Under the pieces are notes generated by a model. That model saw only the letters and a program-made list of their open reading frames with translations. It was not told the origin of the DNA and made no database searches. A stretch of DNA of 64,000 nucleotides, from assembly GCA_017506865.1 (NCBI GenBank), contig JAFCMP010000004.1, positions 124,001 to 188,000 of the forward strand, written 5' to 3'. The stretch is from Tribonema minus. Lineage: Eukaryota > Sar > Xanthophyceae > Tribonematales > Tribonemataceae. A program made the translations under genes and the position numbers. Below, one piece after another: positions 3,575-58,011 of the stretch (the stretch's first letter is position 1; every line of letters starts with the position of its first letter).

Positions 3575-3981
3575 TCGCAGCTGCGCGCACTGCCGTAGCA
3601 AGCGCTGTTGCACGCCTTATACGGCCTGTCTCCAGGGCATCAACATCCTGTCGGCAGCTAGCTTCTCTTCTTCCACACACACCTTACACTTCAAGTACTT
3701 GAAATGAAGTTGGAGAAGTTCGAGGGTACTTTTATTATATTCCACTTGTGGCTGTGGAAATGCCATGTTGTAGGTGTGTCGCCTTGTTTTCACTCTTGGG
3801 TGTAGCATGTCAAGCTTGCACGCCGCGAGTGTACCATCCCCGCCCATTCGCAGTCATGGTCAGCAAGTAGAAGCTGTGACGAAAGTTTGGAGCAGCACGT
3901 CTATCCTCGAGCACGCCTAACAATCACAGGGTCGGATTGCGACCCTTTCTGCAGCTGAACACACAGCTCGTTTGAGCGCAG
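3575..3981. promoter_or_regulatory. Bidirectional SRP14/TRM13 intergenic region
   Basis: 407 bp separate the SRP14 start codon (minus) from the TRM13 start codon (plus), so both promoters must sit here or overlap. Much of it (3724-3827) is an inverted copy of repeat R1, so a repeat has settled in or contributes to the shared promoter. No TATA box stands out. Confidence 0.5.
3724..3827 (-). repeat. Dispersed repeat R1, 3' fragment, inverted
   Basis: On the minus strand this matches 1913-2001 closely, including 'ccacaagtggaatat' and 'gcgacacacctacaacatgg'. It lies in the intergenic space between two divergent housekeeping genes. Confidence 0.7.
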
Positions 3982-6139
3982 ATGGATCACGATCAGCAGG
4001 AGCCACGAATCTGTGAGCAGCCTCACCTAGAGGCACAGCCAACTGGTGGTACACCACCAGCCGAAGGCAACGTCAAACCCCTGCGGATCAGCAAGAAGGC
4101 TCAGAGAAAGCTGGCCAAAAAGGACGCAGGGCAGGACTCTCAGGGCACCGGCGACTGGGATGGCTGCAGAATGTGGGTCACCAGGAAAAACCGCTACTGC
4201 AGCCAGCCCAGGAAGCGCGACGCGCAGTACTGTGGCCTGCACCAGCAGGAAGTCTTCGATGCAGAGTCTAGAATTCCTTGCCCGGTCGACGCAACCCACA
4301 GCATCGACAAGGCCAACCTCCAATGGCACCTGAAGATCTGTACCTTTACGAAAACAGCGAGTGATGTTGCTTCCCAGGTCTTCTACAGCAAGGGCATCAA
4401 CAGCGGCCCTCCACTAGCAGGCTCACCGATAGCAGCCGCAGCAGATGTTGCTGCTCCAAATGGCTCTGCTTTTGTGGATCCTGCCTCCGACCCTACTGCA
4501 GCAGACGAAGCCCCAGTTATCGATGCGTCTGCGGTGTGGCGAATGGCCAAAGCCAGCGGCGGCGACATTGGCGGCGAATACCTCTCCGACCTGATAGCGA
4601 GAATCGAGCGCGCCTATGAGGAGCACGTTGGCAGTATCTCTGCACTTCAACTCAGCCCGCCGGAGTGTGAGCCACTGAAGGAGGCTGCGGACGCGGTGAA
4701 GATGGACCTCAAGCGCATGCGCCACATAGTGCAGCAGTCCAGCATCATCGGGCACATGCAGCGGAGGGGGATGGTGCAGCCGGAGCACTGCTACATTGAG
4801 ATGGGCGCAGGTGAGACTGACTGCTGTCCTCATGAGGTGGTATGAGTTTCGTCTGCTGTTGTACTCAATGCTTGGACTTCCATGCAACTGTGCCAGTCTT
4901 GCTGGGCGCTCCTTGGCCCAGTCGCACAGCTTCAGCGGTAGCCATGACATAATTAGATTACCCCATTCTTTATGTTGCTGCATAAGCACGCTCAGTTGGC
5001 GCGCTCACACCAGACTGTGAATCATTTCAGCAGTAACATGCTGCACTGCTCTACGTGCAGAGCACTGCTTGAGTCGCACACCCGACTCCCTTCCGCAGTC
5101 ACCAGCATGATGTCAGTCATATGTTGAACGCATAACACGCACCTATACCTACCCATACCCCCTATGTGCATACCCCAATGCTCTCTTCAAAGGCCGCGGA
5201 CTCCTGGGCCTCGCCCTGGGCCTCACCTACCCCGACTCCGACATCCTCCTTGTGGATGGCGCCAAGCCACGTAACGCCGGCGACAAGGGGCTGCGCGCTA
5301 AAGGCAACCCCCCCTTCCGCGCAAAAGTCGACATCCGAGACCTTGACGCTGGCAAGCTGCCGCTGCCGCAGGGCAAGCGCGTCGTCATCGTGGCCAAGCA
5401 CCTGTGTGGCGTAGGAACAGATCTTGCGCTGCGCGCCGCGCTTACGCTGGCGCCTGCAGCAGCGCTCAACGGCCAAGCGAGGGACCACAGCGGCGGCGGC
5501 GGCGGCAGCGGCGCCAGTGATTGCGGCGGCGCCAGCAATTGCGGCGGCGGCAGCGGCAGCCGCGCCAGTGATTGCGGCAGCGGCAGCGGCAGCAGATTTG
5601 CGGCAGCGCACGGTCTCGCGGGCGTCGCGATAGCCACATGCTGCCACCACTGCGTCAACCTCACGGACTACGTGGGGCGCGCGTTTGCTGAGCGCTGCGG
5701 CTTTGACAAGCGCGATTTCGCCGCCATTGGCCGACTCGGCGGCTGGGCCACTACATTTGGCCCGGAAGGTGGCGGTCGCAGGCCTGGCAGCAGCAGCGGC
5801 GGCGGCGCTGCGCAGCGCGAAGGTGGCGGTGGCGATGGCGATGGCGATGGCGATGGCGATGGCGGCAATGAGCACAGCGCGAGCGATAGCGGCATAGGGT
5901 GTGAGGGGGGGGGGGCTGTGCGTACCGACGCTGAGCGGCGAGAGATTGGTCGCAAGTCTAAGGCGCTCATTGACTGGGGGCGCAAGGAGTATTTGGAAGG
6001 CCTGGGTATGGAGGCGGAGCTGGTGTACTTTTGCGACCGCGCGTTTTCCCCCGAAAACTGCCTGCTGCTGGCGTGGTTGCCAGGTGTGAGCCCCGAACAT
6101 TGCGGCAGCGGCACTGCTACCGCTTCATGTGGCTCTTGA
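3982..6139 (+). CDS. TRM13: tRNA 2'-O-methyltransferase TRM13
   Basis: TRM13 methylates the ribose at position 4 of certain tRNAs using S-adenosylmethionine. Two exons, 3982-4810 and 5193-6139, join in phase through the SAM motif (IEMGAG|RGLLGLALG) and give 591 aa. Visible parts: a CCCH finger (Cys62, Cys73, Cys84, His87), a CHHC U11-48K-type finger (Cys100, His106, His116, Cys120), the SAM motif near 273-281, VIVAKHLCGVGTDLALR, then ATCCHHCVNL, and a C-terminal IDWGRKEYLEGLG with FSPENCLLLAWLP. This is the full TRM13 order. Two low-complexity inserts are unusual: a Gly/Ser/Ala/Cys-rich block (about 5490-5600) and a GDGD run (5831-5863), both inside the catalytic domain. The last residues after LAWLPG read through a possible donor (GTGTGAG at about 6083), so the extreme C-terminus could differ. 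Confidence 0.92.
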
Positions 6140-18473: not shown

Positions 18474-19568
18474 TTACTTGCGTACGCGCTGCAGTACCTG
18501 CGCTGCCGCCGCGGCAGCGACAGGAGCAGCAGCAGCAGCAGCCCCCGGCAGCCCATCCCCCACTGTAACCGCAACACGGTCATCGTGCCGCAGCGCCACG
18601 TCCTGTATGAGCCCCTGAGCATCGCCATGCAGCACGCGCACGACGTCGCCGACGATGATGGTGGCGGGCGCGCGCACCGCGTGCTCCGTCGCCACCGCCG
18701 TGATGGTCTCCACGGTCGCCTTGACCGTGCGCTGCGTGGGTGTAGATGCGCTTTCGACGATGGCCACAGGGGTGGCTGCGGGGTACCCCCGGCGCATCAG
18801 GTCGGCGCAGAGCTCCTTGAGCCTGCCCACTGCCATGAGGAAAACGGCCGTCTGCTCCGGGTGGTAGTCGCTGATGTCGGGAGTGCCGTAGTCCTTGGCG
18901 TAGCCGGTGCCCAGGACGACCTGGTTGGCAACGCCCCTGTGCGTGACAGGGATGCCCGCCAGCAGCGGCGCGCCAAACACGGAGCTGATGCCGGGAACGA
19001 CGGAGCACTCCAAGCCCCACTTGCGCGCCTCGAGGATCTCTTCCCCTCCTCGGCCGAACACAAAGGGATCCCCGATCTTGAGCCGCACGACGTTCTTGCC
19101 GGCGTCCACGCCCTCCTTTACCCATCGGTAAATCTCCTGCTGAGCCTCCTCTGCGCAGCCGGGGTGCTTGCGAGCGACACGGAGGTCGCCCTCGACCAGG
19201 TCTAGTATCTCTTTGCTGACTAGCCGATCAGCAATCACCAGATCTGCTGTTGCCAGGACACGCACTGCCTTGACCGTGAGCAAGTCGGGATCTCCGGGAC
19301 CTGCGCCGACTAGTGTAAGTGTACCTGACGGAGGGATGGTGGCGGCGACGGTGTCCGGAGAGACGCAGGACATGATGGTAACCGCGTACCGCTGCCGCTG
19401 CTGCCGCAACGTGGAATACGGTAAGTGGGCAGCATGGCGTGACGAAGCTGATGTTGTCGCCAGTGCTCGCTGATGATGCACTGATGCGAAAGCCTCCGTA
19501 GATGGCACTGCGACAAGGCAGGCGCAGGCCACCGTGATGGCGGCAGGACGGCCGCGAACAAGCCCCAT
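18474..19568 (-). CDS. UPM1: Uroporphyrinogen-III C-methyltransferase, plastid
   Basis: The SAM-dependent enzyme (SUMT) turns uroporphyrinogen III into precorrin-2, the branch point toward siroheme for nitrite and sulfite reductases. It is a single 364-aa exon. The presequence MGLVRGRPAAITVACACLVAVPSTEAFASV is a signal peptide ending in an ASAFAP-like EAF|AS site, so plastid import is expected. The enzyme core carries LTLVGAGPGDPDLLT, RLKIGDPFVFGRGGEE and VVPGISSVFGAPLLAGIPVTHRG, all SUMT signatures. There is no fused CysG dehydrogenase/ferrochelatase or HemD domain, so later siroheme steps are encoded elsewhere. The C-terminus ends in an Ala/Val-rich tail outside the enzyme fold. The lack of introns is unusual among its neighbours. 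Confidence 0.92.
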   Translation of the reverse strand: MGLVRGRPAAITVACACLVAVPSTEAFASVHHQRALATTSASSRHAAHLPYSTLRQQRQRYAVTIMSCVSPDTVAATIPPSGTLTLVGAGPGDPDLLTVKAVRVLATADLVIADRLVSKEILDLVEGDLRVARKHPGCAEEAQQEIYRWVKEGVDAGKNVVRLKIGDPFVFGRGGEEILEARKWGLECSVVPGISSVFGAPLLAGIPVTHRGVANQVVLGTGYAKDYGTPDISDYHPEQTAVFLMAVGRLKELCADLMRRGYPAATPVAIVESASTPTQRTVKATVETITAVATEHAVRAPATIIVGDVVRVLHGDAQGLIQDVALRHDDRVAVTVGDGLPGAAAAAAPVAAAAAAQVLQRVRK

Positions 19569-20311
19569 GATTCAGGTGTGTGTGGAGCTGGAGCGATTAT
19601 GCGGATGGTGGGACTTGCTGCTGATGGCTGTCTAGTGGCTCGTGTGTGATAAAACCAGAAAAAACAGTGATCTCTCCTCTCACGAAGTTGCCTCAGTTGG
19701 CGTCTGGTACAGGGAAAAGGCTTGCCTCTCTCGCGGCAGTTCAGATCAGGTGACGTGAACTTCCAGGTGAAGGCGAACTTCCAGGAACCGTTCACGAAGC
19801 TATTTCAGGCTTAACAGCGGACGATGGAAATGATCCTGGTTCACCTCCCTGTTGAATTTGCAATGCCTGCTGATCACTTCAAATGTGTGCTGCTATGATG
19901 TGCGCAAATTTGTTCGACAGCAAGGATGTGTTGGGTCTCAGGCAGAGGCCGTTTTGTGAGACTTTTAACTACGTGGAGCTGATGAACCCTGCCAGCAGCA
20001 AGGCTCAGTCAACTCGTGCAGCTACCCCATATGCAGCAGCACAACACGCTTTCATCATGAAAATAAGAAACGCCAATTGGATCCCGAAGCACAGCCAGAT
20101 GTGCACACATGAAACTCAACGTTGGTGCCATTTATTATCGCTTACAGCGGTCTTGTGATGCGTTGCGCTCAATGGCGCTGTGATATGCCAAGTCATAAAT
20201 CTTGCCAATCATGTTTTTTTGCGGCTCGTACCTGCGAGTCAAATATACTACATGCCTTGCCACGACCCGCATGAGTGGCTAAGTTTTGACGACTTTCCAT
20301 GCGGCCATGAG
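19569..20311. other. Intergenic region upstream of UPM1
   Basis: 743 bp between the UPM1 start and the stop of the next minus-strand gene; it must contain the UPM1 promoter. Near 19757-19800 the phrase 'gaacttccagg' is repeated. No gene seen. Confidence 0.4.
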
Positions 20312-37179: not shown

Positions 37180-38592
37180 AATGTGAGTCTCCAATGTATT
37201 TTTGGGCTAGTGCCTTGACACTGTATTGCTGTGATGTTTTAATCCACAGCAATGTCAGAAGCTGCCTCTGAAGGAAGGAAGCCAGGCCTACCTGCGTTCG
37301 TTCCCGAGTTGAATGTATCTGGCCTGCGTGCATGTTAGCTGATGATGCAAATGCGCAATTGCCTATCGAAAGGTCAGCATGCCATGTGTTGTCAGGCACT
37401 GAAGCTGCAAACCCGAATGACGGAAAGCTGAACTGCGCATCGACGACATGCCGCATGATGCAGTGCAGGTAGGTATGTAGGACCTTGATACATAGTGCCA
37501 TACAGCGGGTTGTCCAATTTTGGCATCAATGTCAAGTGCTGTGCTTGTCGGTCAACTGCAGAGTCAAATGAGCACGCAAGCCATGCTGTGACGACCACTT
37601 GCGCAGCAGATTTGCCAGAATTTTGCAAGACCGTGATCTGATACAGCTCGTAGCAGGCAGAACACTTAGGCAAGAGGTAACCACAGCGCCATGAGCAAGA
37701 TGTTGTTCTCAGAGCAAGATGCTCGACTCCTCTGATAGCGTTTCAAATGCCAGGGACACGCAAATTATGTGTGTGATGGCATCAAGTGGCCAAAAATGGT
37801 TGGCGTGTCAGTATGTGAGCCCGATCGCACGCTATCACTTCTCACTTACAATTTGCACCCATGGAAATAATTTCCCCCACTGCTTGCAGGCCAGACTTAC
37901 TCAGTGTATGCTGTACATCATTTCAAAACTTGTAAGCGTGTAAGCAGTATATGATGGCTTGCGAGTGGCTCAAGCAGTGTATGTACTTTTTATTAATTCT
38001 CGCTCAGGGCGCGAAAAAGCCCAGATGATTGGCATCTAGCTGTACTTTTATTAATTCGCTTCGCAGTGTATGTACCTGTACATACGTGGCTAGCGCCCCC
38101 TCTTATGTAGCGCTTTTGATGAAGTTGAGTTGACCATCACGGTCCTTTTGATTTGTATGATGAGTGCATGTGAAGCTGGACGACTTCACAGTCAGTAGAG
38201 AGCCAGTGTACAGGAGGCCCTGGCATTGTCGTGAGAAGATGAAGCCGACAGAGCTTCAAATACTCAAGGGATGCAGTGGCATGTGCTCCGACAGCTGCTG
38301 CAGGCCATCAGCTGTTGTTGTGAGCAGTGAAGGTTTTTGGAGAGTGATTGACTTCGCTCAACTGTCGTAGGTCCTTCGCTCTGCATCATATGCAGGTGCC
38401 TCGTGCAACCGCTTCGCGCAAAAAAATTGAGGAACTTCGACGTAACCGCAGAATAACGTTTTTTTTTAATGTGTCGCGCCGGGCTCCTGCCGCGTCGAAT
38501 CGGTGGATTGTCGCACCTTCTGGATGACTTTTGATCCTACAGAGCCGCCGTGGTAACCATTCCACACCAATTCATATCATCAAACTGCACAT
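37180..38592. other. Intergenic region upstream of the GPCR gene
   Basis: 1.4 kb with no supported gene. A segment near 37990-38060 ('attctcgctcagggcgcgaaaaa...atgattgg') is repeated, diverged, at 39598-39650 inside GPCR intron 2. A T run and 'gtcgcgccgggctcctgccg' lie at 38460-38490. The GPCR promoter must lie here. Confidence 0.4.
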
Positions 38593-41500
38593 ATGTCGCT
38601 AGCTCAGCTCTTGCTTTTTTTGGCGATAACTGCAGTTGGCGACCTTGGAGCTGCTCTGGGGGCTGAGCAGCAGCCTGTGTGGGCCAGATGCTGTTAAACA
38701 AATGTCGTGGCGGGTTGCACCTGGCGGTGGTCGTCTTTATCAGGCTTTTCGGTCATGGCGTTGCCACCAGCTCCGAGTACCTCGTTTCGTCAAGTTCCAC
38801 GACCGATGCCCCTGCGTTCGAGTACTCCATGCCAGTCCTTGCTGCTGGCGAAGCCACAGTCACGGGCTCATGGCTCTCCGTCACTTCATGGCACGCACGA
38901 AATCTTACGGAGATCAGCTGGGCAGCAGTCCCTAATGTCACACCTCAAGATTACATTGCCGTCTTCGAGGACCGCTATAGCTCTCATACTTGGCTGGCGG
39001 CGTGGAATCCCTGGCTAGCACTGCCGCGGATGAAACCTCCCCGCGGCTACCAGAACTTCACCACACTCACAGACACCCAGTTGTGCAACGTGAGCGAGTA
39101 TCGGTACGATAAGAATGGCTCGTTCTACGAGCCCGCCAAGAGGGCGCAAGGCCTGGTGCTCACGCCAACATGGTTCTACACCAACACCCTGGACCAGAAT
39201 GGAGGCAGCAGCGTGGCCGCCACAGGCACAGCCAGCGTGCATCTTGCGGAGGTGGGGGTTTGGCAGGTGTGCCTCATGAGGAATAGGGGGGCGGGATGCA
39301 GCAAGGTGGAGTGCGTGCAGGTGGACATGTATCAGCCACCGTATGACTATGTGGAGGCTGATGCAATGAGCATCACCGACAGCGTACGCATAAGGTACAA
39401 CCTCGTGAGCCACAACTCGTACCCGACAGGTGAGCAGGCTGGAATATGCAATGGCCATCGTGACAAGCCGGTGGTAATGCTGCCATCGATATGCATGCAG
39501 CGGTTGTGTAAGCGGCAGCGAACAGGGCTGCTGTTGGCTGCTTGCGCTCGTGTCTGGGCTAGTCGAGGAGCCAGCGCACATCGCCCGTGTGCTGCCTAGT
39601 AATTCCTGCTTAGGGCGCGGAAAAAAAAAAATGATTGATGCTAAGTTTGCTGCCAGAATCCACAAATGTACCTTTTGTCCAAGTATCAATACGCATTCTC
39701 GATCAAAACTTACTTGCGACATTGCCAGATCTGCGAATACCAGCATGTCTAGGCCGTGAATGCGCTGGAAGACAGCGTACTTATGCCTGCATACTGTGCC
39801 GCACCATGCGTGCAGCGCGATGATGCTCATGACAGTGCCTGCCGAATGTGCATCCTGCACATGCCTGTCAGTAACACCCTCCGTGCCGCAGGGAAAACGA
39901 ACCTCAGCATAGATTGAGTTGCCTTTCCGCTGCTCTGTTCCACAGACTGGCTCTGGTTTGTGGGCTCGCTGCCAACAACCGCAACTATCTACAACACCTT
40001 TGGAGCCACATGGGACGGATACAAGGAGAACAACTTCTGCTGGGTATACCTCAGCCGAGTGTTTGACGTACAGGGAAAACCTGCAAACAAGAGGTTTCTG
40101 TGCGCACCGGGGAGCCCTGACATCAGTAACCTGAACGGTGTTCCAGCCCTGTCGGTGAGCGCTGCTTGCAGTGTGTATTAACGCTTGCGGTGCAGTGTGT
40201 GGTGTGCACATTGATGCATGATGACAGGGGCTCTGCAGAGTGCGAAAACGTTCAAACTGCATGCAGCGACTTCATGACGACTCGCTTCTCAAGTTACCAA
40301 TCTGACCGTGCGTAAAGGGGGGGAGGGTATCATCATACATCCCAAACAAACACATTATTGCCCTTCGGTAGCAGTGTGGAAAATTGACAAAGCCCTGTTG
40401 ATGGTTTGTAAGAACATGGCTCGGCCGTGCTGTTACTGGCACCCAGGGCCTCCCGGGGCGTAGCATGATGAGTGGTCTGTTATTCAAAGGCTTTGGTAGG
40501 CGCATGCATACTGTTGGCGTTGCGTTTGACAATGCCTTGTGATTCGGACACCTCATGTTGGCATTGCTAGCACCTACCTCGCTTCCATACATTTTGCTTT
40601 GTCGTTTTGTTCTGGTCTGGATGGCCCCTAGGTATGCTTCCATGAGCAGCAGCATGGCACGATGAGTACCAGCTCATTCTTGTGTCACACGCTTGTGGCC
40701 ACGCAGCAATAGATGCAGGGTTTTGACTGTTGTACTTGCAAAGGCGACTTCACTCAATGGCGGCTGAATGGCTCACGCAACATCGCCTGTGAACGACAGC
40801 ACGGGTGCATGCCTGCTTTCACAGTGCACTTCTTCACACATCAAACCGATATGCTGGCTCCAACGCCAGGATGAGACCAGGATGTGAACTCATCATCCGA
40901 TATGACGTCAAGTTGAAGTTGAAGTTGATGCACACATGCTTTTCCTCTTGTGCCAACAGGCACATCAGTGGGGATCGCTGCTCATGGACTCGGGGGGCAG
41001 CGGGAACCTTACGGCGCTGTTTGGGCTACAGGTATGTATGTATGCAAGGCTAACTTACCCTACTAGTACCTGCGCACAAATACGTTGGGTTCGTATTCAA
41101 GAAGCTATGAGTGCGAGGTGGATATGACCTCAAGCATGCCCTTCTTTGTGAATGCATGTGGTTACTTCAATTTTTATCAGTGTGCGACATGCGGTGCACT
41201 ACTTGTTGACATCACCTGTTTGCGCAGCAGCTATGAGAGTTTATGTGTGTGCAAAATCACTGCGGCGAGTTGAGACCAAGCAACAGCTGGCCCAATCTCA
41301 GGTTCACACAACGATGTGCCTGTCTCACTGACAACACCATTGTGAGGATGGTGCGGAAGTCCCCCATCACTATTCACTATCCGGTGCAACCTCCACCAAC
41401 TGACACCATCGCCCTTTTGCACGCGGCTGCACTGCTCACTTTGCAGAATCAATTCACATGGGGCATCATGTCCCACTACTACCTCTGCGGCGTCAAAACC

Positions 41501-44500
41501 GCCATCACCAGCCGCAACACCACCGCCGCCGCCGTCTCTCCTATCCACAACGCGACTGTCACTGCAACGGAGCACTTCGATGTGACGATCAAGCCGGAGC
41601 TAGGGGGCGCACACAACTGCGTTGCGCCGTTCAACGGCACCGGCTTCAATGCGAACATCCGCACCACCGCGGCGGACATGGATTACCTGGATGTGAGCTG
41701 CATTGCATTTGCAACTCTGCAGTTGAAGTTGGTGTTCATTGCTGCACTTCAAGTTGGTGACATTCCCTGGTGACAATAATGTCGGGAGTGTGTCGCTTGC
41801 GCTTGCGCTAGCGCCAGTCAAGTGAAACGAGTTAATGAGCCTCTTCAACCTGCACATGTGGCCTCTGTAGCTACTGTACCTACACCAGTTGTAATGTGCG
41901 CGTCACGCCGTGTTGTGTGACGCATACTCGGAACTGTGTCAACATCTCTGTGTTGTGGTCCAAAGTAGTATCAATGCACGTCACCTTTTACAAAAACGCT
42001 CACTGTGGCGCTCCCATTCACTACTTCAACTTGCACCAGATTCCCGCGACAGTGAGCTTCAAAGGCGGCATGAAGCAGAAGAACGCGGCGGCGACAGTTA
42101 CATCCATACTGCTGCCCGCAGCGGGCACGCATGAGGTCGGAGTGACCCTGGAGAGTCGGGCCAAGCTCAGCTCGTACTCCGTCCGAGTGGAGCCCTCGCA
42201 GGTGTATGCGCAGTCAGCGCAGCAGCTGCCCGGCAACGTAATACCGGCGTCAATTAACACCGGCGGCAATGTCAGCTTTTCCTTTGTGGCACGGGACTTG
42301 TACTTGAACCCCATTGGGAAGGGTGGCGCGCACTTCGAGGCCACCATCGTGAGCGCTGCTAACGGCGTCGCTGCGAGTCAGGGCTCAGCAAACGTCACCG
42401 ACCACGGCAACGGGACGTACACGGTGGATGCTCAGCTGCGCGGCAAGGGCACGGAGGTAAAGTTGAAGTTGAAGTTGGAGCGGGGCGTGCTCCATGTGTC
42501 GCACACACAGATGATCGCCTCTAGTGCAGCCTGTGGGTGGTGGTGAGAATCGTGCTATGCAGCGAGGCTTGTTGCAATATATTGTTTGTTGTGATTCTAG
42601 CCTGTGCGGAGCTTGGTGTCCCACTACCATTTGCATGCGCTGTTGGCAGTTTTGTCATCTGTCACGTATGCAACGCAATGTTGGACCTGCCCCGGTGCTG
42701 CGTGTTTACGCGGCTTTCGAGACATGTTTTGGCACCCCTGCCTGCATGGCAGAGGCTGGTAGCATGGAGTTTGCATGAAGTTTCAGGTCGAGGTGTAAGG
42801 TTAGAGCTTGCGTTGTGGTGGGCCGCAATCAGCGTAGGACAGGAAGCCAATTGAATTGCAAATTCTGATCAGATTCTGTTTTGATTATCCAAGCGTACAT
42901 CAGCACGTGCTACCTCAGGCTTGTCTGTTTGAAAGCACACACTCAAAGTGTACACAATGTCTGGCACTTCTCTCCTGCCGCAGTTCCTTGCGGTCTTCCT
43001 GCCAGCGGTTGATGCGGCGACTGGTGCCATGAGAGGTGCACGACACTTGAGTGTCAGCAACGTCACCACGGCAAGACAGGCAAGTCACCTCAAGCTGTTG
43101 CAGTTTCTGCTGGTCATTTCAAAGAACACTGGAGTGTCAGCAACATCACCATAGTGAGATGGGCAAGGCACTTCAAGTGACTTGTTGCAGTTGGGGCAGG
43201 GGTTATCCCCAGCTCAACTGCGCACAAGCGGCTCGATGTGCCACAGAGGTAAAATGACCATACCATGCAAGCCAACGAGCATCCTGCCAGTTTCAACAAC
43301 ATCGGCAAACTTCAAGTTCACAAACCGCTCCCATGTTTTCCCAGACCAGCACCCACCAATTTGAACTTGAATGCCAGTGATACTGGCGGTACCATGAGCT
43401 GAGCTGTACCGTCACCAGCCCCCTGTCCTCAACCAGCGCCTGCCCCCTCGCTCTGACCATACTTACCTACCCCTCCCCCCCCCCCCAGACCGGCCAGAAC
43501 AGCCACATCCCCGGCAGCCCCTTTGAGATCTACGTCGTGGCCCCCGAGGCCGTCCCCACGTGCGGCGCGGACCGCCTGCGCGTGACCGTCGGCGCGTGCA
43601 AGCGCAACTCCCAGAGGAGAGTCACCTACAGCTTCGACGAGGCCAGCGGCGGCGGCTGCACCGGCGGCAAGCTGCCCGCCGCGGAGCACGCACCGTGCGA
43701 CTCGGTGCGCTACGACTCGTCGCTGGGAGTCGGACTCACGGCGTTCGCGGGCGCCGCCGCGGCGTACGCGCTCGGCGTCATGGCCATGCTCAGGCACTAC
43801 CGCGACAGCTGGGTCATCAAGTACTCGCAGATACTGTTCTGCGCGCTGTTCCTGGGGGGGTGCGCGGCGCTGTCGGCGGTGTCGATACTGCACCTCGGGC
43901 CCGCGACGCCCGCCGCGTGCCTGGCGCGGCCGTGGCTGCAGCACGTCGTGCTCACGTTCACGCTCGGCTGCCTGCTGGTCAAGGCAAGTGCATCCAAGTC
44001 GGGGGTGTTGTTGATTGATGGCAGTGGCTGATGTCAAATTGTACTAATGTAGAAACCATTGCCGTTACCTTGCGGCTGCGCCTGCTCACTGAGGCAGTGG
44101 GTATGTACTAGGGAGGTACCTGTGTCATTGTGGCAATGGATGCGCTGGATGTTGGTATCGGTATCAATGATCGCTATGATGGGCAGCTGCGCCGTTGTGA
44201 CGCAAAGGATGAGCAAAAAAAGTTGTCAGTTGGTGCGCAAGCCATAAGGTGCAGCCGTGTTCACACAGCAGATCTCACCAAGCAGACGCTGTTGTCGTTA
44301 CGACAATGCCAATTACGTGTAGAGGCAGCCATGCCTGACACTACCCAAAACGTGCTGTCCTTCCCTGCCTCCAGCCTTTTCTGACCTCTCACCTCTGACC
44401 TCTCACCTCCTAAGTCTCATGCGCACGCCCCCCCCCATCACACTTTTAAACCTCAACTTGATGTTGCAGGTGCACCGCGCCTACAAGCTGTTCAGCACTG

Positions 44501-46981
44501 GGCTCAAGCGCATGCGGATCTCCAACGCCGAGCTCGTATCGCGCGTCGTCGCCCTGTGCTCCTTCGACATCCTCATACTGACCATCTGGTACTTGGCGAG
44601 TCCCCCAAAGCGACTTATTGAGATGCGAACCATGGGCGCGTTTGCCACTGTGCCGTATGAGGTCTGCCACAGCGACATGAAGGCCTTGGCGATCATCCTG
44701 TGGGCCTACAAGTGAGTTCAACTTGAAGTTGAAGTGTAGGGTAGATCCTGCAAGCGCGCTGCAAAAGTGGTCATTGCGGTTGCAGCGCCGCCTGTACTTG
44801 TATTTGTTACACACACGTCGAGCTGCCACAGCTATATGATTGCGCCCAAACACCGCATGCAGTGGAAGTGGGCTTCTGACATCTTCCTGCATGGCCCACA
44901 TAGCTGTGACACTCAGGAGTTTTTTAATCAACCCCACCCCTATTCCTGACCCCGGTTAAAATTATCATCTGCTGCAAATGATCGGCCACATGGTATTTAC
45001 AGTGATGATAATACAGCCGGACTTATCCATTTCACCCGCATCACATGTTCTGGCACATACTGTGTAGACACTGTTGGACAAGGACTTCACAAATTTCATG
45101 TTGGTTTCTCGACCTGAGCACGTGACACCAGAGAAAGTACTTCGTGATGTATGTGATTATGTGCAACTCATGCACAGCGCTCGAAGCAATCATACTTCCG
45201 ACATTCAAGCAGTCGGTGAGTCAGTGGCACTGCTGCCAAGCCAATGCTAATGCATCTGTCACCAACCAAGGTTCTTCTGGAGGTATTGAAGTTTGTTGCG
45301 CGTCACCTCGCACTGTTGAGCTTACCCCTGCACGTTTGTGTGTGTGGTGCTGCACAGGGGCGTCCTGATTGCAGTGGGCGCATGGCTGGCGTTCAAGTCA
45401 TGGAAGCTGGTGGACACCATAGCTGAGGCCAAACCGCTGGCCGTCAGCATCTACAATATCCTCATGCTGGTTCTTATTAACGCCATTCTGGTCGGGGTAC
45501 TGGGCGACGGCACCATGGGCATCATGGTGCGTGCTTCGCTGCAATTGCAGCCAATTTTTCATCTTTGGGGCCAAATGCTCGGATCTGTGTTGTAACGCCA
45601 GAAGTGGTGTGTTACTGGAAGCAGCAAGAAGCACGTTAGTTAGGTCAAGGTCACTCGTACCTTATGCTGAATGTATCATTGTTTAATGGTTGATATTCAT
45701 GGAGTATCGTGCGTGTGACGTCGTCGAGCAAGCCGTACATCAGTGCACAATAAAGGTTCCGTCCATGTGCAAGTGGGAGGGTCACCAGGGTATGCATGTA
45801 TCTGAGTTTCAATAGCCGACCGCAGATGTGAACTGCCTGTACATGCGTATGCCCCGATGCTGCAGAGCTTGCGTTGCGGCGTCTTTGCAAGTCTCAGTGC
45901 AACACTCTTTGGGGTTTGGCTCTGGTTAGCCAGTTTGCACTCCCAGCAAAACCGATTGTTGTCACAGCTGTGCCAGCATGCTGCCACAGACCAAGTACTT
46001 TAGCCTCATATTTAGAAGCCCACTTTCACACATCTTGCTGACCTTCAGAGGACAGTGCTGACAAGCAGCTTGCGCATGCTAGATGTGCACCGTTCCGTCC
46101 TTAACTGGTGCTGGTCGATGCCCATGGTGTCGGCAAAGCCAACCTCAACTTGTTGCCACGTGGTAGGGCCATCTCCCCTTTACCTCCCGTCATCTGCTGC
46201 CATTTTTAGGGTTGCCAACTGCATATGACGTATCTCCTATTGTACATTCTGCCACTTGCTGTATTCTACTCATGACCTCCCCCCCCCTCCACTGCTCCCC
46301 CTTCTTGATGCCGCTCAGGTGCGAACGATCACCATCAACGTGGGCTGCATCGCCAGCATCTCGCTCATCTTCCTGCCGAAGTGGTACAAAGCGTACATGC
46401 GCGAGGAGCTCAAGGAACTGGGCATTGCCACACCGCCGGTCAAGATGGCGAGTCGCGCACTCACCAGCAGCGCAGGGCAAGATGGCACATTCAGCACGGG
46501 CAGCCAGGGCAACAAGACGCAGCCCAACTCGCCACTCTGGAAGCCACCCGGGCCGCAAAGACTCCCGTCCTCAAACACATACGCTCTTGCAGCAGAATCC
46601 AGCGCCGCTTCAACGGCGCTCGTGGTGAGCGCTGACGTGATGCCGATTGCACGGCGCCGCAGCAGCAGCGGCGGCGGCGGCGGCGGCGGTGGCCGAGGCT
46701 CAGCGCCGCCGTCGCTCATGTCGTTCAAGTCCTTCGACAGCTCGCAGCTGCGCAGCACTCCCAAGAACCCTTTCAGCGACGGGGGCGTCGATGTGCCGTT
46801 GAGCGCTGTCGCACGTGAGCAACTTCAAGTTGAAGGCGGGCGCCAGAGCAGCAGCGTGAGGCGTATGCTTGTGCGCATGTCGTTCAAGGGGACTGCGGAG
46901 ATCGTACCCGTGGCCGATGAGGCGGCGCCGTCGTTAGCACCGCCGCCTGCGCAGCAGCAGCAGGGGCAGGATGAGTTGTAG
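38593..46981 (+). CDS. Class C GPCR with filamin-repeat ectodomain
   Basis: A putative surface receptor with a GABA-B/mGluR-type 7TM domain. Exons: 38593-38678 (tentative), 38744-39429, 39946-40154, 40960-41031, 41067-41147, 41447-41692, 42040-42456, 43489-43983, 44470-44711, 45358-45526, 46319-46981; all phases close at about 1121 aa. It starts with a signal peptide (MSLAQLLLFLAITAVG). Residues about 40-170 (VTGSWLSVTSW...VTPQDYIAVFEDRYSS) resemble the Ig-like N-domain of purple acid phosphatases. A filamin Ig repeat lies at about 480-615, with ARDLYLNPIGKGGAHFEA, DHGNGTYTVDAQL and HIPGSPFEIYVV; a short strand before HIPGSPF may sit in an unfound exon. Seven helices follow (about 655-935), with a GABA-B-like WLQHVVLTFTLGCLLVK|VHRAYKLF and FLPKWYKAYM. 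The cytosolic tail is Ser/Gly/Gln-rich. The ectodomain has many N-glycosylation sequons and no Venus flytrap. One intron uses a GC donor and one is only 35 nt. Confidence 0.82.
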
Positions 46982-47064
46982 AACAGTCTTCGCATACAGT
47001 CTCCACAGCCTTGGCAAGGTTTGTGAAAGTGCCCATTGGTATGGCACTCGTTTTGTGCATCCAA

Positions 47065-47660
47065 TCGCTTCCTGTGGACAGCATTTATCCTCCCGTGTGA
47101 GCAGCCTGGGTTGTACCCTCTCCCCGCAGTACGTAGTAGCCGTTGATGTCAAGTTTGTACTGTCCTACGCAATTGAAGTTCAAAAGCATCAGCGCTCAGC
47201 GCCGCACGAGGCCACCACAGCGTGCCGCCCAAGAAGCAGGCAGTGCTTTGCTACCGTCATCGAGGTTGACCAAAGTTGAAGTGTTCACGCATCGATCTGT
47301 ATACATAGACTTTGACATTGGTGAAGTTTCACTTTTGCATGTCCGTTTCTGTATCACATGGCATCGCTTGATGGAATGCATGTGGCTAGCTTGAACCTCC
47401 CAGTTCAAAGGCCCTCCCTTATACCTCCGCAGGTAGGCGGCGATGGACCCTAGTGCATGCGGCAGGACAAGTGTAGTTGCACTCAAACCGGGTCACCATC
47501 ACCTCGGAGTTATTTGTGCACAAGAGCGTCATGTCACCTCCATGCTCTTCCTGCGTGTGAACCTGTTATAAGCATAAGAGTACGTTCATGCTGCGGGGAC
47601 AAAGTCTTCCTCGCCGCTACTCGTTGCTATCCCACGTCAAGCAGCACCACGGTCGCTAGA
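47065..47660. repeat. Duplicated spacer R2, copy A
   Basis: This aligns in two blocks with 52309-53232 at clearly recognisable but diverged identity. Block 1 is 47065-47283 ('gtggacagcatttatcctcccg', 'catcagcgctcagcgccgc', 'gttgaccaaagttgaagtgt'). Block 2 is 47311-47660 ('tgacattggtgaagtttcactttt', 'gtaggcggcga', 'gggtcaccatcacctc', 'cttcctcgccgct'). It begins just after the GPCR stop and lies upstream of a Crinkler-like gene, as does copy B. Confidence 0.75.
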
Positions 47661-55262: not shown

Positions 55263-55539
55263 GCGTTCAACGATTTGGCAAGTAGGGCGGTCGCAGAACT
55301 ATATCACTATGCTTGGGCCGACACAAGCTGGCAGCTTGCGACCTCCACAGGAGTGAGCTTCAGAGAAAAGCCCAAGATCCTGTGCCTCGTATAATCAGAT
55401 CCAAGCCGGTATGGCACAAAGCCGGCAATAAAGCCGGTAAGCCGGTTGCCTTGTCTCCACCGGCTAAGCCGGTGAAAGCCGGGCGGTGAGCCCTCACTCA
55501 AGCCGGATAGCCGGTCGGTGGGACCGGCTCAGAACACTA
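54779..55539. mobile_element. Non-autonomous hAT-type element (MITE)
   Basis: A 761-bp element with terminal inverted repeats TAGTGTTCTGAGCCGG ... CCGGCTCAGAACACTA. It is flanked on both sides by the 8-bp target duplication CAAATTTG (54771-54778 and 55540-55547), itself a palindrome. Eight-base duplications and a TAGNG terminus are hallmarks of the hAT superfamily. Both subterminal regions are crowded with AGCCGG/CCGGCT hexamers, likely transposase sites. No transposase frame is present; the interior includes a long (GT)n tract. Confidence 0.85.
55193..55261 (+). repeat. (TG)34 microsatellite
   Basis: About 34 uninterrupted TG units inside the hAT-type element. The Cys-Val 'protein' read through it is meaningless. 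Confidence 0.95.
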
Positions 55540-58011
55540 CAAATTTGTGGCAACTTCAAGGTGGCGCTCATGGCGCAGCTCACGCATGAGTGCGGCGGCG
55601 TGCTCCTTGCCATTGACGGCAGTAATGCCTTCAACGCGCTGTCGCGCTCGGCAGTCCTCACCGCGGTGGCCGAGCATCTGCCTGGCCTGTACGGCTACGT
55701 CGAGCACATCTACGGCCCCGGCCGGGCCCCTTGGCTACAATTTGGCCTAGATGGGCACGCCGACGCCGCCATCATCCTCTCCCAACAGGGCGTGCAGCAG
55801 GGCGACCCATTGGGGCCGCTGCTGTTCGCGCTGGCACTGCGCGGCACCATGGTGGCTGCCCGCGCCAAGTTCCCGCAACTGGCGCTTCCGGGCTACCTCG
55901 ATGACCTCACCATCATGACGCCCAGCTGTGACGCGCCGGTGCTCGACCACGTTGGCCGCGCGTTCTGCTTCATACAACAGGCGCTGAGCGAGCTCAACAT
56001 TCAGGTCAACGTCACGAAATGCGCGGCGGTGGTGCCGGCCTCAGGCGGCGCCCGCGAGCGCGCCGCCGCCGTCTTTGCCGCCGCCAATGTCCCCGTACCA
56101 GTATGTGACGACGGCATCACGCTGATGGGGGTGCCGGTCGGCACCGAGGGCTTCGTGCGCGCGCAAGTGGCGGCGACCCTTCGTGCCCCCGGCACCGACC
56201 GCCTGGTTGCGGAGCTTGTGCAGATGGAGGATGTGCAGGCTGCCTTCTCCATTCTGCGTCTTGCCGTCCCCGCCCGCGCAGGGCATGTCTCGCGCAATAC
56301 AGCGCCATCCCTCACGCACGAGGAGCTACGGCGCTTCGACGCCATCACGCTAGCGGCCGTGGCCGCGCTGGCGCAGGAGCCATCGGCGGGTCTTACGCCG
56401 CCGGCCCACCAGCGCGCGCCGGCGGCGGGTGACGATTGCCGCGGCCCGCCGGCGGTTTCGGCGGCGGCGGCGCCGCCCTCTCTGTGGGCGGCGGCAGTGG
56501 CATGGGTACGCGGCGCCGACTGGGGTGGCGAGGCCCCAGTGACGCTACCAGCACATCAGCAGGTACGCGTGCATCTGCGGCTGGGGAGTGGTGGCTTTGG
56601 CGTGCTGGGCGCGGCGCCCCGTGCATGTGCCGCATTTGCTGCACGTTCCCTCGAGTGCATGGGGCCGGCACTGGCGGCATTTCCAGTCGCGGCACGCAGC
56701 CGCGTCCTAGAGCATGCCCGCTATGGCTTCACCTTCACCCAGATAGCTACCTGCCTGCAGCAGCTGCGCAGCGGCAGCGATGAGGCTGCAGCGGCCCTCG
56801 CACTGCTCCTGCCCACGGTCTGGTACCAGGACTGGCGCCAGGACGACGGCGCATGGCGGGCGCTGCGCGATCTGCTGCAACGGGCAGGCGGAGCTGCGGG
56901 GCCGGGCATGCGGACTCGCGCCGGCGCGCGCCGCGCTGCTGCGCCAGCGGTGGCGCGCGAGCCAGGCTCTGCCCAGGCCCCGCCGGCCGCCGTGCTGCCG
57001 CGGCGTCAAGCGGCGCTATCACGGGTGCTAGACGCAGCGCTCGCCGCCACGCAGCTGCGTCGGCTTGAAGCAGCAAATGCGTTGGAAGCAGTCGCGGCGT
57101 GGCGCAGCGGCGCCTCTAAGGGGGCCATGGGTTTCTTGGCGCAATTGCCGAGCACTGACCCAGCGGAGACCATGTCCCCGCCGGAATTCCGCGAGACGCT
57201 GCGGCGCCACCTGGGCGTGGAGCGCCCCGCCCCCGCTGCGGCGCGGTGCCCCAAGTGCCATAGACCAGTGGACTCGGGTGCCCACCTGCGCCGCTGCACA
57301 CAAGGGCTTAACGTCACGCGACACAACTTGCTCGCAGACGCGCTCTTTCAGATGCTCAAGCAGGTGGCCCACCTCCGCGGTCTCGACCGGGACACCCTTG
57401 CCCCCTTCCGCCGCTACGCGGCGCGCCACGGGTTCAACAAGTTCATGGACATCGTCTTTGGCAGCAACCAGGTCTGCCTTCCAGTCCCTAAAGTGCAGCC
57501 GAGCGCCGACGCGGTAGCAGCAGGCCGGTGCACTAAACTGCGCGGCGGCTTTGAAGTAGCTTGTTGCATAGACGTCACCATACGTGACAGCTCATGCCCC
57601 TCCCGCCTCCGTCAGGCTCAGGGGGGCGCGCGCGATGTGCAGCGCGTGCTTGAATCGGCTTCGCAGGAAAAGATAGACACATACGTAGTCTCAGGGGCCC
57701 TGGACCCCACTACACACACCCTATTTTCCGCAGCCTTTGACCACTTCGGCGCTATGTCACGCGACACCCAAGCGCTGCTACACGCACTCGCCGAGCAGAG
57801 CTCGCAGGGCAGCTACAATCTCGCGCAGCGCGTTGCCTTCTGGCGCCGCCGCACCTCCCTCGCGCTACAGCGCGCGCTCACACGTGTCGTGATCGACAAC
57901 TGGAACGCAGTCATTGCCCCTGATGGCGACGTCAGCGCTTACCGCCGCATCGCACTGTTGCAAGTGCCGCGGCCCTCGCCGGCCAGCGCCGAACCGCCGG
58001 CTCCTCCGTAG
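55540..58011 (+). mobile_element. 5'-truncated LINE-like reverse transcriptase ORF
   Basis: An open frame of about 820 codons to the TAG at 58009-58011. It carries reverse-transcriptase blocks A (VLLAIDGSNAFNALSR), B (QQGDPLGPLLFALAL), C (PGYLDDLTIM, YLDD at 55894-55905), D (LNIQVNVTKCA) and E (ITLMGVPVG). A knuckle CPKCH...HLRRC (57247-57300) follows, then a C-terminal region with FEVACCIDVTIRDSS that recalls the (P)D...DVT pattern of restriction-like endonuclease domains in non-LTR elements. The fingers expected before block A are missing. The frame begins at the hAT element, and the bases left of that element stay in the same frame but do not look like RT. There are no internal stops across 2.4 kb, so the copy is fairly young. 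GC content is higher than in neighbouring spacer. A polyadenylation-like AATAAA lies at 58088-58093. Confidence 0.85.

Follow-up and report, generated by a model that had tools for sequence, protein, structure and literature searches.

Animal class C receptors, a class of G-protein-coupled receptors (GPCRs), mostly sense small molecules through a Venus flytrap. The class C receptors of diatoms, according to the parts of PMC3727952 covered here, have a seven-transmembrane (7TM) domain that is deeply diverged and basal to GABA-B, N termini that vary, and a ligand-binding domain in only 7 of 16 candidates; in the portions of PMC12716839 covered, the ectodomains of non-metazoan Glutamate-family receptors are likewise often unlike the animal ones. 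Filamin-like domains, in turn, are described in the sections of PMC9187738 covered on the gamete-surface proteins FUS1 (Chlamydomonas) and GEX2 (flowering plants). Here we analyse a gene on the + strand of a 64,000-nucleotide stretch of the Tribonema minus genome (contig JAFCMP010000004.1, positions 124,001 to 188,000; henceforth the window, whose own numbering is used throughout). We consider it fairly probable that this gene, modelled as nine exons from 38688 to 46981 encoding 1084 amino acids, specifies one receptor in which a filamin-type ectodomain without a flytrap is joined to a GABA-B-like 7TM domain and drives G-protein signalling upon contact.

The seven-helix domain and the missing flytrap

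The spliced protein matches the Pfam profile 7tm_3 at residues 636-885 (E 1.4e-41, 143.2 bits against a cut-off of 33.5), over positions 2-251 of a profile of 251. The nearest PDB structures to this domain were GABA-B2 (2.3e-15, 60 bits), GABA-B1 (2.5e-12) and mGlu4 (1.5e-10), with structures of GPR156, a constitutively active class C receptor with a short ectodomain, also among the matches. When read against GABA-B2, the domain holds a cysteine pair of the extracellular loops (in ACLARPWL and YEVCHSD), a basic lysine and arginine in the third transmembrane helix (TM3; LVKVHRA), an acidic glutamate in TM6 (AEAKPL) and a proline-lysine pair in TM7 (FLPKW), all of which are class C features in the parts of PMC3727952 covered. 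A hydropathy scan found six of the seven helices above the set threshold; TM3 fell below it, yet lies inside the Pfam match. On this sequence evidence the predicted protein carries a full class C 7TM domain, GABA-B-like in kind. The sequence-only reading of this locus had drawn the same picture from the TM3 and TM7 features, and the profile search that it proposed as a check bears it out.

By contrast with animal GABA-B receptors, which have a Venus flytrap ectodomain (ANF_receptor), no such domain was listed for the receptor protein in a Pfam search with matches listed up to E 10, although the filters of HMMER discard most matches above E of about 0.1. An exon-by-exon search of the 158 Mb genome (554 contigs) with PF01094 likewise gave 0 matches, while 7 of 14 control genomes gave matches; a flytrap that is heavily split or diverged could escape such a search. 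The absence of a flytrap, also claimed earlier, thus holds for the protein and, exon by exon, for the genome.

The 7tm_3 profile found two loci in the genome (5 matches), the window gene and a second one on contig C468, and exon 1 used as a query returned the same two (3 matches). C468 holds counterparts of exons 1 and 3-9, arranged as in the window gene, and downstream of the exon 1 match its frame continues into the counterpart of exon 2 (as YPGDWI). Of the 627 residues aligned over 15 pieces, 280 are shared with the window gene, with 270, 222 and 314 differences at codon positions 1, 2 and 3 (a sixteenth piece, an overlapping one of exon 8, was left out of these sums), and the joined 7TM pieces score 130.9 bits against 7tm_3.

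This second copy bears on a reading in which the receptor is the same and its ectodomain chiefly a spacer, with a small ligand (amino acid, lipid or other) bound in the 7TM bundle, or with constitutive activity. Such a reading would suit a 7TM domain that is complete (2-251 of 251), the GPR156 structures among the PDB matches and the diatom candidates, only 7 of 16 of which have a ligand-binding domain (PMC3727952, parts covered). However, a long ectodomain whose pieces keep 33-61% identity between the two loci is more conserved than would be expected of a free spacer, and we hold this reading to be doubtful.

A different alternative would divide the locus into two adjacent genes, one for an adhesion-type secreted or membrane protein and one for a flytrap-less 7TM protein, given that a 1 kb intron separates exons 5 and 6 of the predicted model. 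Against this, the last filamin strand, HIPGSPFEIYVV, and TM1-TM3 share one uninterrupted exon (43489-43983), which places that strand in the same gene as the 7TM domain; all eight exon junctions are in phase; and C468 keeps the same order, with one open frame that takes in the DxGNGT strand and GSPFEVYVV and goes on into the linker. We therefore regard two genes as very improbable.

The ectodomain and the module before TM1

Some 600 residues precede TM1, and the module that directly adjoins it appears, weakly, to be filamin-type. Filamin repeats carry the signatures DxGxGTYxV and HIxGSPFxxxV; in the window gene these keep their register right to the profile end, and both motifs are kept at the second locus. 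The Filamin match reaches the profile end (93/93) in the same register in both copies, at the second locus after removal of an insert, through the motifs DxGNGT and HI(P/S)GSPFE(I/V)YVV. With Filamin taken as the single pre-specified family out of 24,736 models, the E-value of 0.55 in the window becomes about 2e-5, and that of 0.0055 at the second locus, from which the insert had previously been removed by hand, becomes about 2e-7. Retaining ten codons after exon 5 raises the score to 20.7 bits, still below the gathering cut-off of Filamin (PF00630), which is 26.9 bits. A PDB query with the module, ten extra codons included, listed TRIM71 (0.0015) and filamins A and C (0.16-4.8).

A number of results count against a contact receptor of this kind. 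Filamin scored below its cut-off everywhere: the whole protein reached 11.5 bits (E 0.55) and pieces cut from the modelled splice 16.3 and 16.7 bits; at the second locus a Pfam search with the joined pieces gave no family, and Filamin came out on top, with 17.9 bits (E 0.0055), once the low-complexity insert had been cut out by hand. On one cut of the window piece Invasin_D3, which we take to be another Ig-like family, scored 16.9 bits against 16.7 for Filamin. A bacterial attaching-and-effacing protein headed the PDB list of the module query (1e-4), and designed Pizza proteins (0.0042-0.22), which look like chance matches, ranked with or above the filamins. Exon 5 of the window stops short of the F strand, which the second locus has (YLSVYLI), and a microexon that would restore it was sought in the gap between exons 5 and 6 with no convincing candidate. 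AlphaFold2 gave poor models, with a mean pLDDT of 48 for the exon 1 domain and 40 for the filamin module, which leaves the Ig-like character of the ectodomain a presumption. At the second locus neighbouring pieces abut in different frames in the exon 5 and TM1-TM2 stretches, and these breaks may therefore be assembly errors or mark a pseudogene. 

Part of this evidence would also fit an ectodomain made of a generic Ig-like chain (invasin- or Big-type), in which the filamin-like motif is convergent and implies no kinship with filamins: Filamin remains under its cut-off, Invasin_D3 and Big_3_5 compete with it, and the best PDB row is bacterial. Yet the match runs to 93/93 through both motifs in both copies, TRIM71 and filamins A and C stand in the PDB list at the E-values given above, and the values for a pre-named family are about 2e-5 in the window and, with the insert cut by hand, about 2e-7 at the second locus. 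We consider such convergence possible, if on balance unlikely. What the sequence-only reading had called a complete filamin-type repeat, ending in HIPGSPFEIYVV before TM1, thus survives weakly as a sub-threshold module and loses the word complete, since its F strand was not found at the exon 5/6 junction of the window gene. Elsewhere in the genome, on contig C101 (L012, L013), Filamin matches lie in two stretches of a 1512-codon open frame and in a neighbouring frame, with PA14 just upstream; the predicted protein is possibly adhesin-like.

Ahead of TM1 there are 12 N-x-S/T sequons. Under a stricter rule the count in 600 residues was 11, while shuffled sequences averaged 5.6 and reached 11 in 61 of 5000 cases; the dense N-glycosylation proposed from the sequon count comes down to an excess of about twofold, a modest one. 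The proposed segment resembling the N-domain of purple acid phosphatases found no support: up to E 10, neither PF16656 nor PF17808 was listed when the protein and its cut domains were searched, and none of the 25 PF16656 matches across the genome falls in the receptor gene (a genome search with PF17808 found no match anywhere, control genomes included, and is uninformative). Some of those PF16656 matches, on contigs C523 (107-137 kb) and C439 (1-14 kb), are spaced at about 2.35-2.65 kb, many with identical scores, and would represent either one gene repeated in tandem or a giant protein built of repeats.

Exon structure, neighbouring genes and host

The gene model was obtained by reading the + strand from 38400 to 47300 for open reading frames (ORFs), splice sites and phase; its introns are GT-AG, with one GC-AG. 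A span from 38593 to 46981 had been proposed for the gene. Its stop codon stands (46979-46981), and its start does not: the frame with the ATG at 38593 closes at 38694 (46 codons from 38557), so the start was placed at 38688, which needs no extra intron.

All exons lie on the + strand. Exon 1 (38688-39429) opens with the ATG and an N terminus (about amino acids 8-28) that is hydrophobic in the hydropathy scan and resembles a signal peptide, followed by a domain without a Pfam family (about amino acids 55-213) with the motif WLAAWNPWL and, at its 3' end, by the beginning of the next module (YQPPYD) and the donor ACAG/GTGAGC. Neither as an ORF nor within the spliced protein did it give any match in the Pfam search; its identity to the second locus is 33% over 38865-39269 and 37% over 39264-39425. 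Exon 2 (39946-40154), placed by splice sites and phase, holds the second ectodomain module (DWLWFVGSL...). The short exon 3 (40960-41031), AHQWGSLLMDSGGSGNLTALFGLQ, and exon 4 (41447-41692; YYLCGVKT...), which has no assigned family, are both ectodomain and match the second locus at E 2.4e-5 and 5.8e-6, respectively. Exon 5 (42040-42456), also matched there, comprises an unassigned, possibly Ig-like segment and then the first filamin-type strands (DHGNGTYTV); its donor is GAG/GTAAAG, and its junction with exon 6 is uncertain. Exon 6 (43489-43983) sits in a single ORF (43381-44028; 7tm_3 match E 3.5e-17), joins the last filamin strand to a Cys-containing linker and TM1-TM3, and has the GC donor. 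Exon 7 (44470-44711; 7tm_3 6.2e-7) carries the second intracellular loop, TM4, the second extracellular loop and the start of TM5, and exon 8 (45358-45526; 7tm_3 2.4e-7) TM5-TM6 with the motifs AEAK and SIYN. Exon 9 (46319-46981) encodes TM7 (FLPK), matched at the second locus, and a tail of about 199 amino acids up to the stop; alone it gave no Pfam match, and within the spliced protein it is covered by 7tm_3.

A simple repeat, GTTGAA/CAACTT, recurs in the introns (about 40911-40930, 42461-42480 and 44716-44735), and CAACTTCAACTT is present also at the second locus, in its open F-G insert; the repeat may have passed into coding sequence. Elsewhere in the window, an 847-codon open frame (55468-58008, +; reverse transcriptase match RVT_1, E 7.5e-9) is probably a retroelement and overlaps the G+C peak (0.693, 56001-58000); a TRM13 tRNA methyltransferase occupies two open frames at 3976-6136 (+), zinc fingers first and methyltransferase second, and a tetrapyrrole methylase (TP_methylase, E 4.1e-53) lies at 18477-19571 (-).

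The genome gave 92 light-harvesting complex (LHC) matches; one LHC is nearest in the PDB to fucoxanthin-chlorophyll proteins, and two others have LHCI chains as their best rows. Two short rbcL fragments, which we take to be red-type, lie deep inside contigs C334 and C112 (L029, L030) and are probably plastid DNA inserted in the nucleus. Because of the fucoxanthin-chlorophyll-like LHC and these presumed red-type fragments, the host is probably an alga of the red-plastid lineage.

Proposed contact sensing and the known systems

As the best explanation of the locus we propose the following, in which the layout is read from sequence and ligand, dimer and coupling are inferred throughout. An ectodomain that is probably made up of Ig-like modules in series would bind a protein or glycan on another cell, on the alga's own coat or in the matrix; binding would shift the filamin module and the short Cys-containing linker against TM1; and the 7TM bundle, probably as a dimer, would activate one of the alga's heterotrimeric G proteins. 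G-protein partners are available: profile searches of the genome gave 40 matches for G-alpha, of which those above the cut-off fall at no fewer than 10 places (haplotype copies may be among them), and 13 for RGS, spread over 12 places. On the same side as the adverse points above, a G-gamma search of the genome found none, nor did any control genome give matches.

The filamin-like end of the ectodomain hints at the sensing of proteins or surfaces rather than of a neurotransmitter. By analogy with FUS1 and GEX2, gamete-surface proteins that bear filamin-like domains, the earlier proposal of a receptor for a wall, matrix or protein partner seems a plausible one; given also the filamin/PA14 frames in the genome, a role in adhesion or at the matrix is the guess that suggests itself most readily. 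One could go further and see a class C adhesion-type receptor, whose filamin-type module, docked on a GABA-B-like 7TM domain, would turn cell or coat contact into G-protein signalling as an independent algal counterpart of the animal adhesion GPCRs, which we judge speculative and rather improbable. Adhesion GPCRs proper are marked by GAIN/GPS beside a class B 7TM domain, whereas only 7tm_3 and Filamin were listed for this protein (E up to 10).

If correct, a filamin-type ectodomain on a flytrap-less GABA-B-type 7TM domain, in a cell rich in G-alpha genes, would suggest that outside animals the ectodomain is loosely tied to the 7TM domain. Little is known of the receptors of microalgae, and this one would offer a concrete candidate, open to cloning, for the sensing of contact or matrix. 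The published literature searched, a scope that leaves aside subscription papers, preprints and the supplements of PMC12716839, yielded no class C receptor with a filamin module, and the combination looks new.

FUS1 and GEX2 presumably lack a 7TM domain. Like the algal receptor, they are membrane proteins, one from an alga and one from plants, that bear a filamin-like domain (PMC9187738, parts covered). The animal GABA-B receptors GABBR1 and GABBR2 are its nearest PDB relatives in the 7TM domain, where the TM3 lysine, acidic TM6 residue, TM7 FxPK and loop cysteines align; unlike them, the algal receptor has no flytrap that could be found, and its ectodomain ends in a filamin-type module. The missing flytrap is itself not new, because the published diatom class C receptors mostly lack a ligand-binding domain (PMC3727952, parts covered). 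With those diatom and microeukaryote receptors it shares a photosynthetic host, the frequent lack of a ligand-binding domain and a variable N terminus; theirs, by contrast, carry PBP1, 5-nucleotide-C or Cache domains, with no filamin repeat seen in the parts of that source covered. The non-metazoan Glutamate-family receptors differ in the same way, the domains named for them in section 9 of PMC12716839 being ANF, EGF, 5_nucleotid_C and Ephrin_rec-like.

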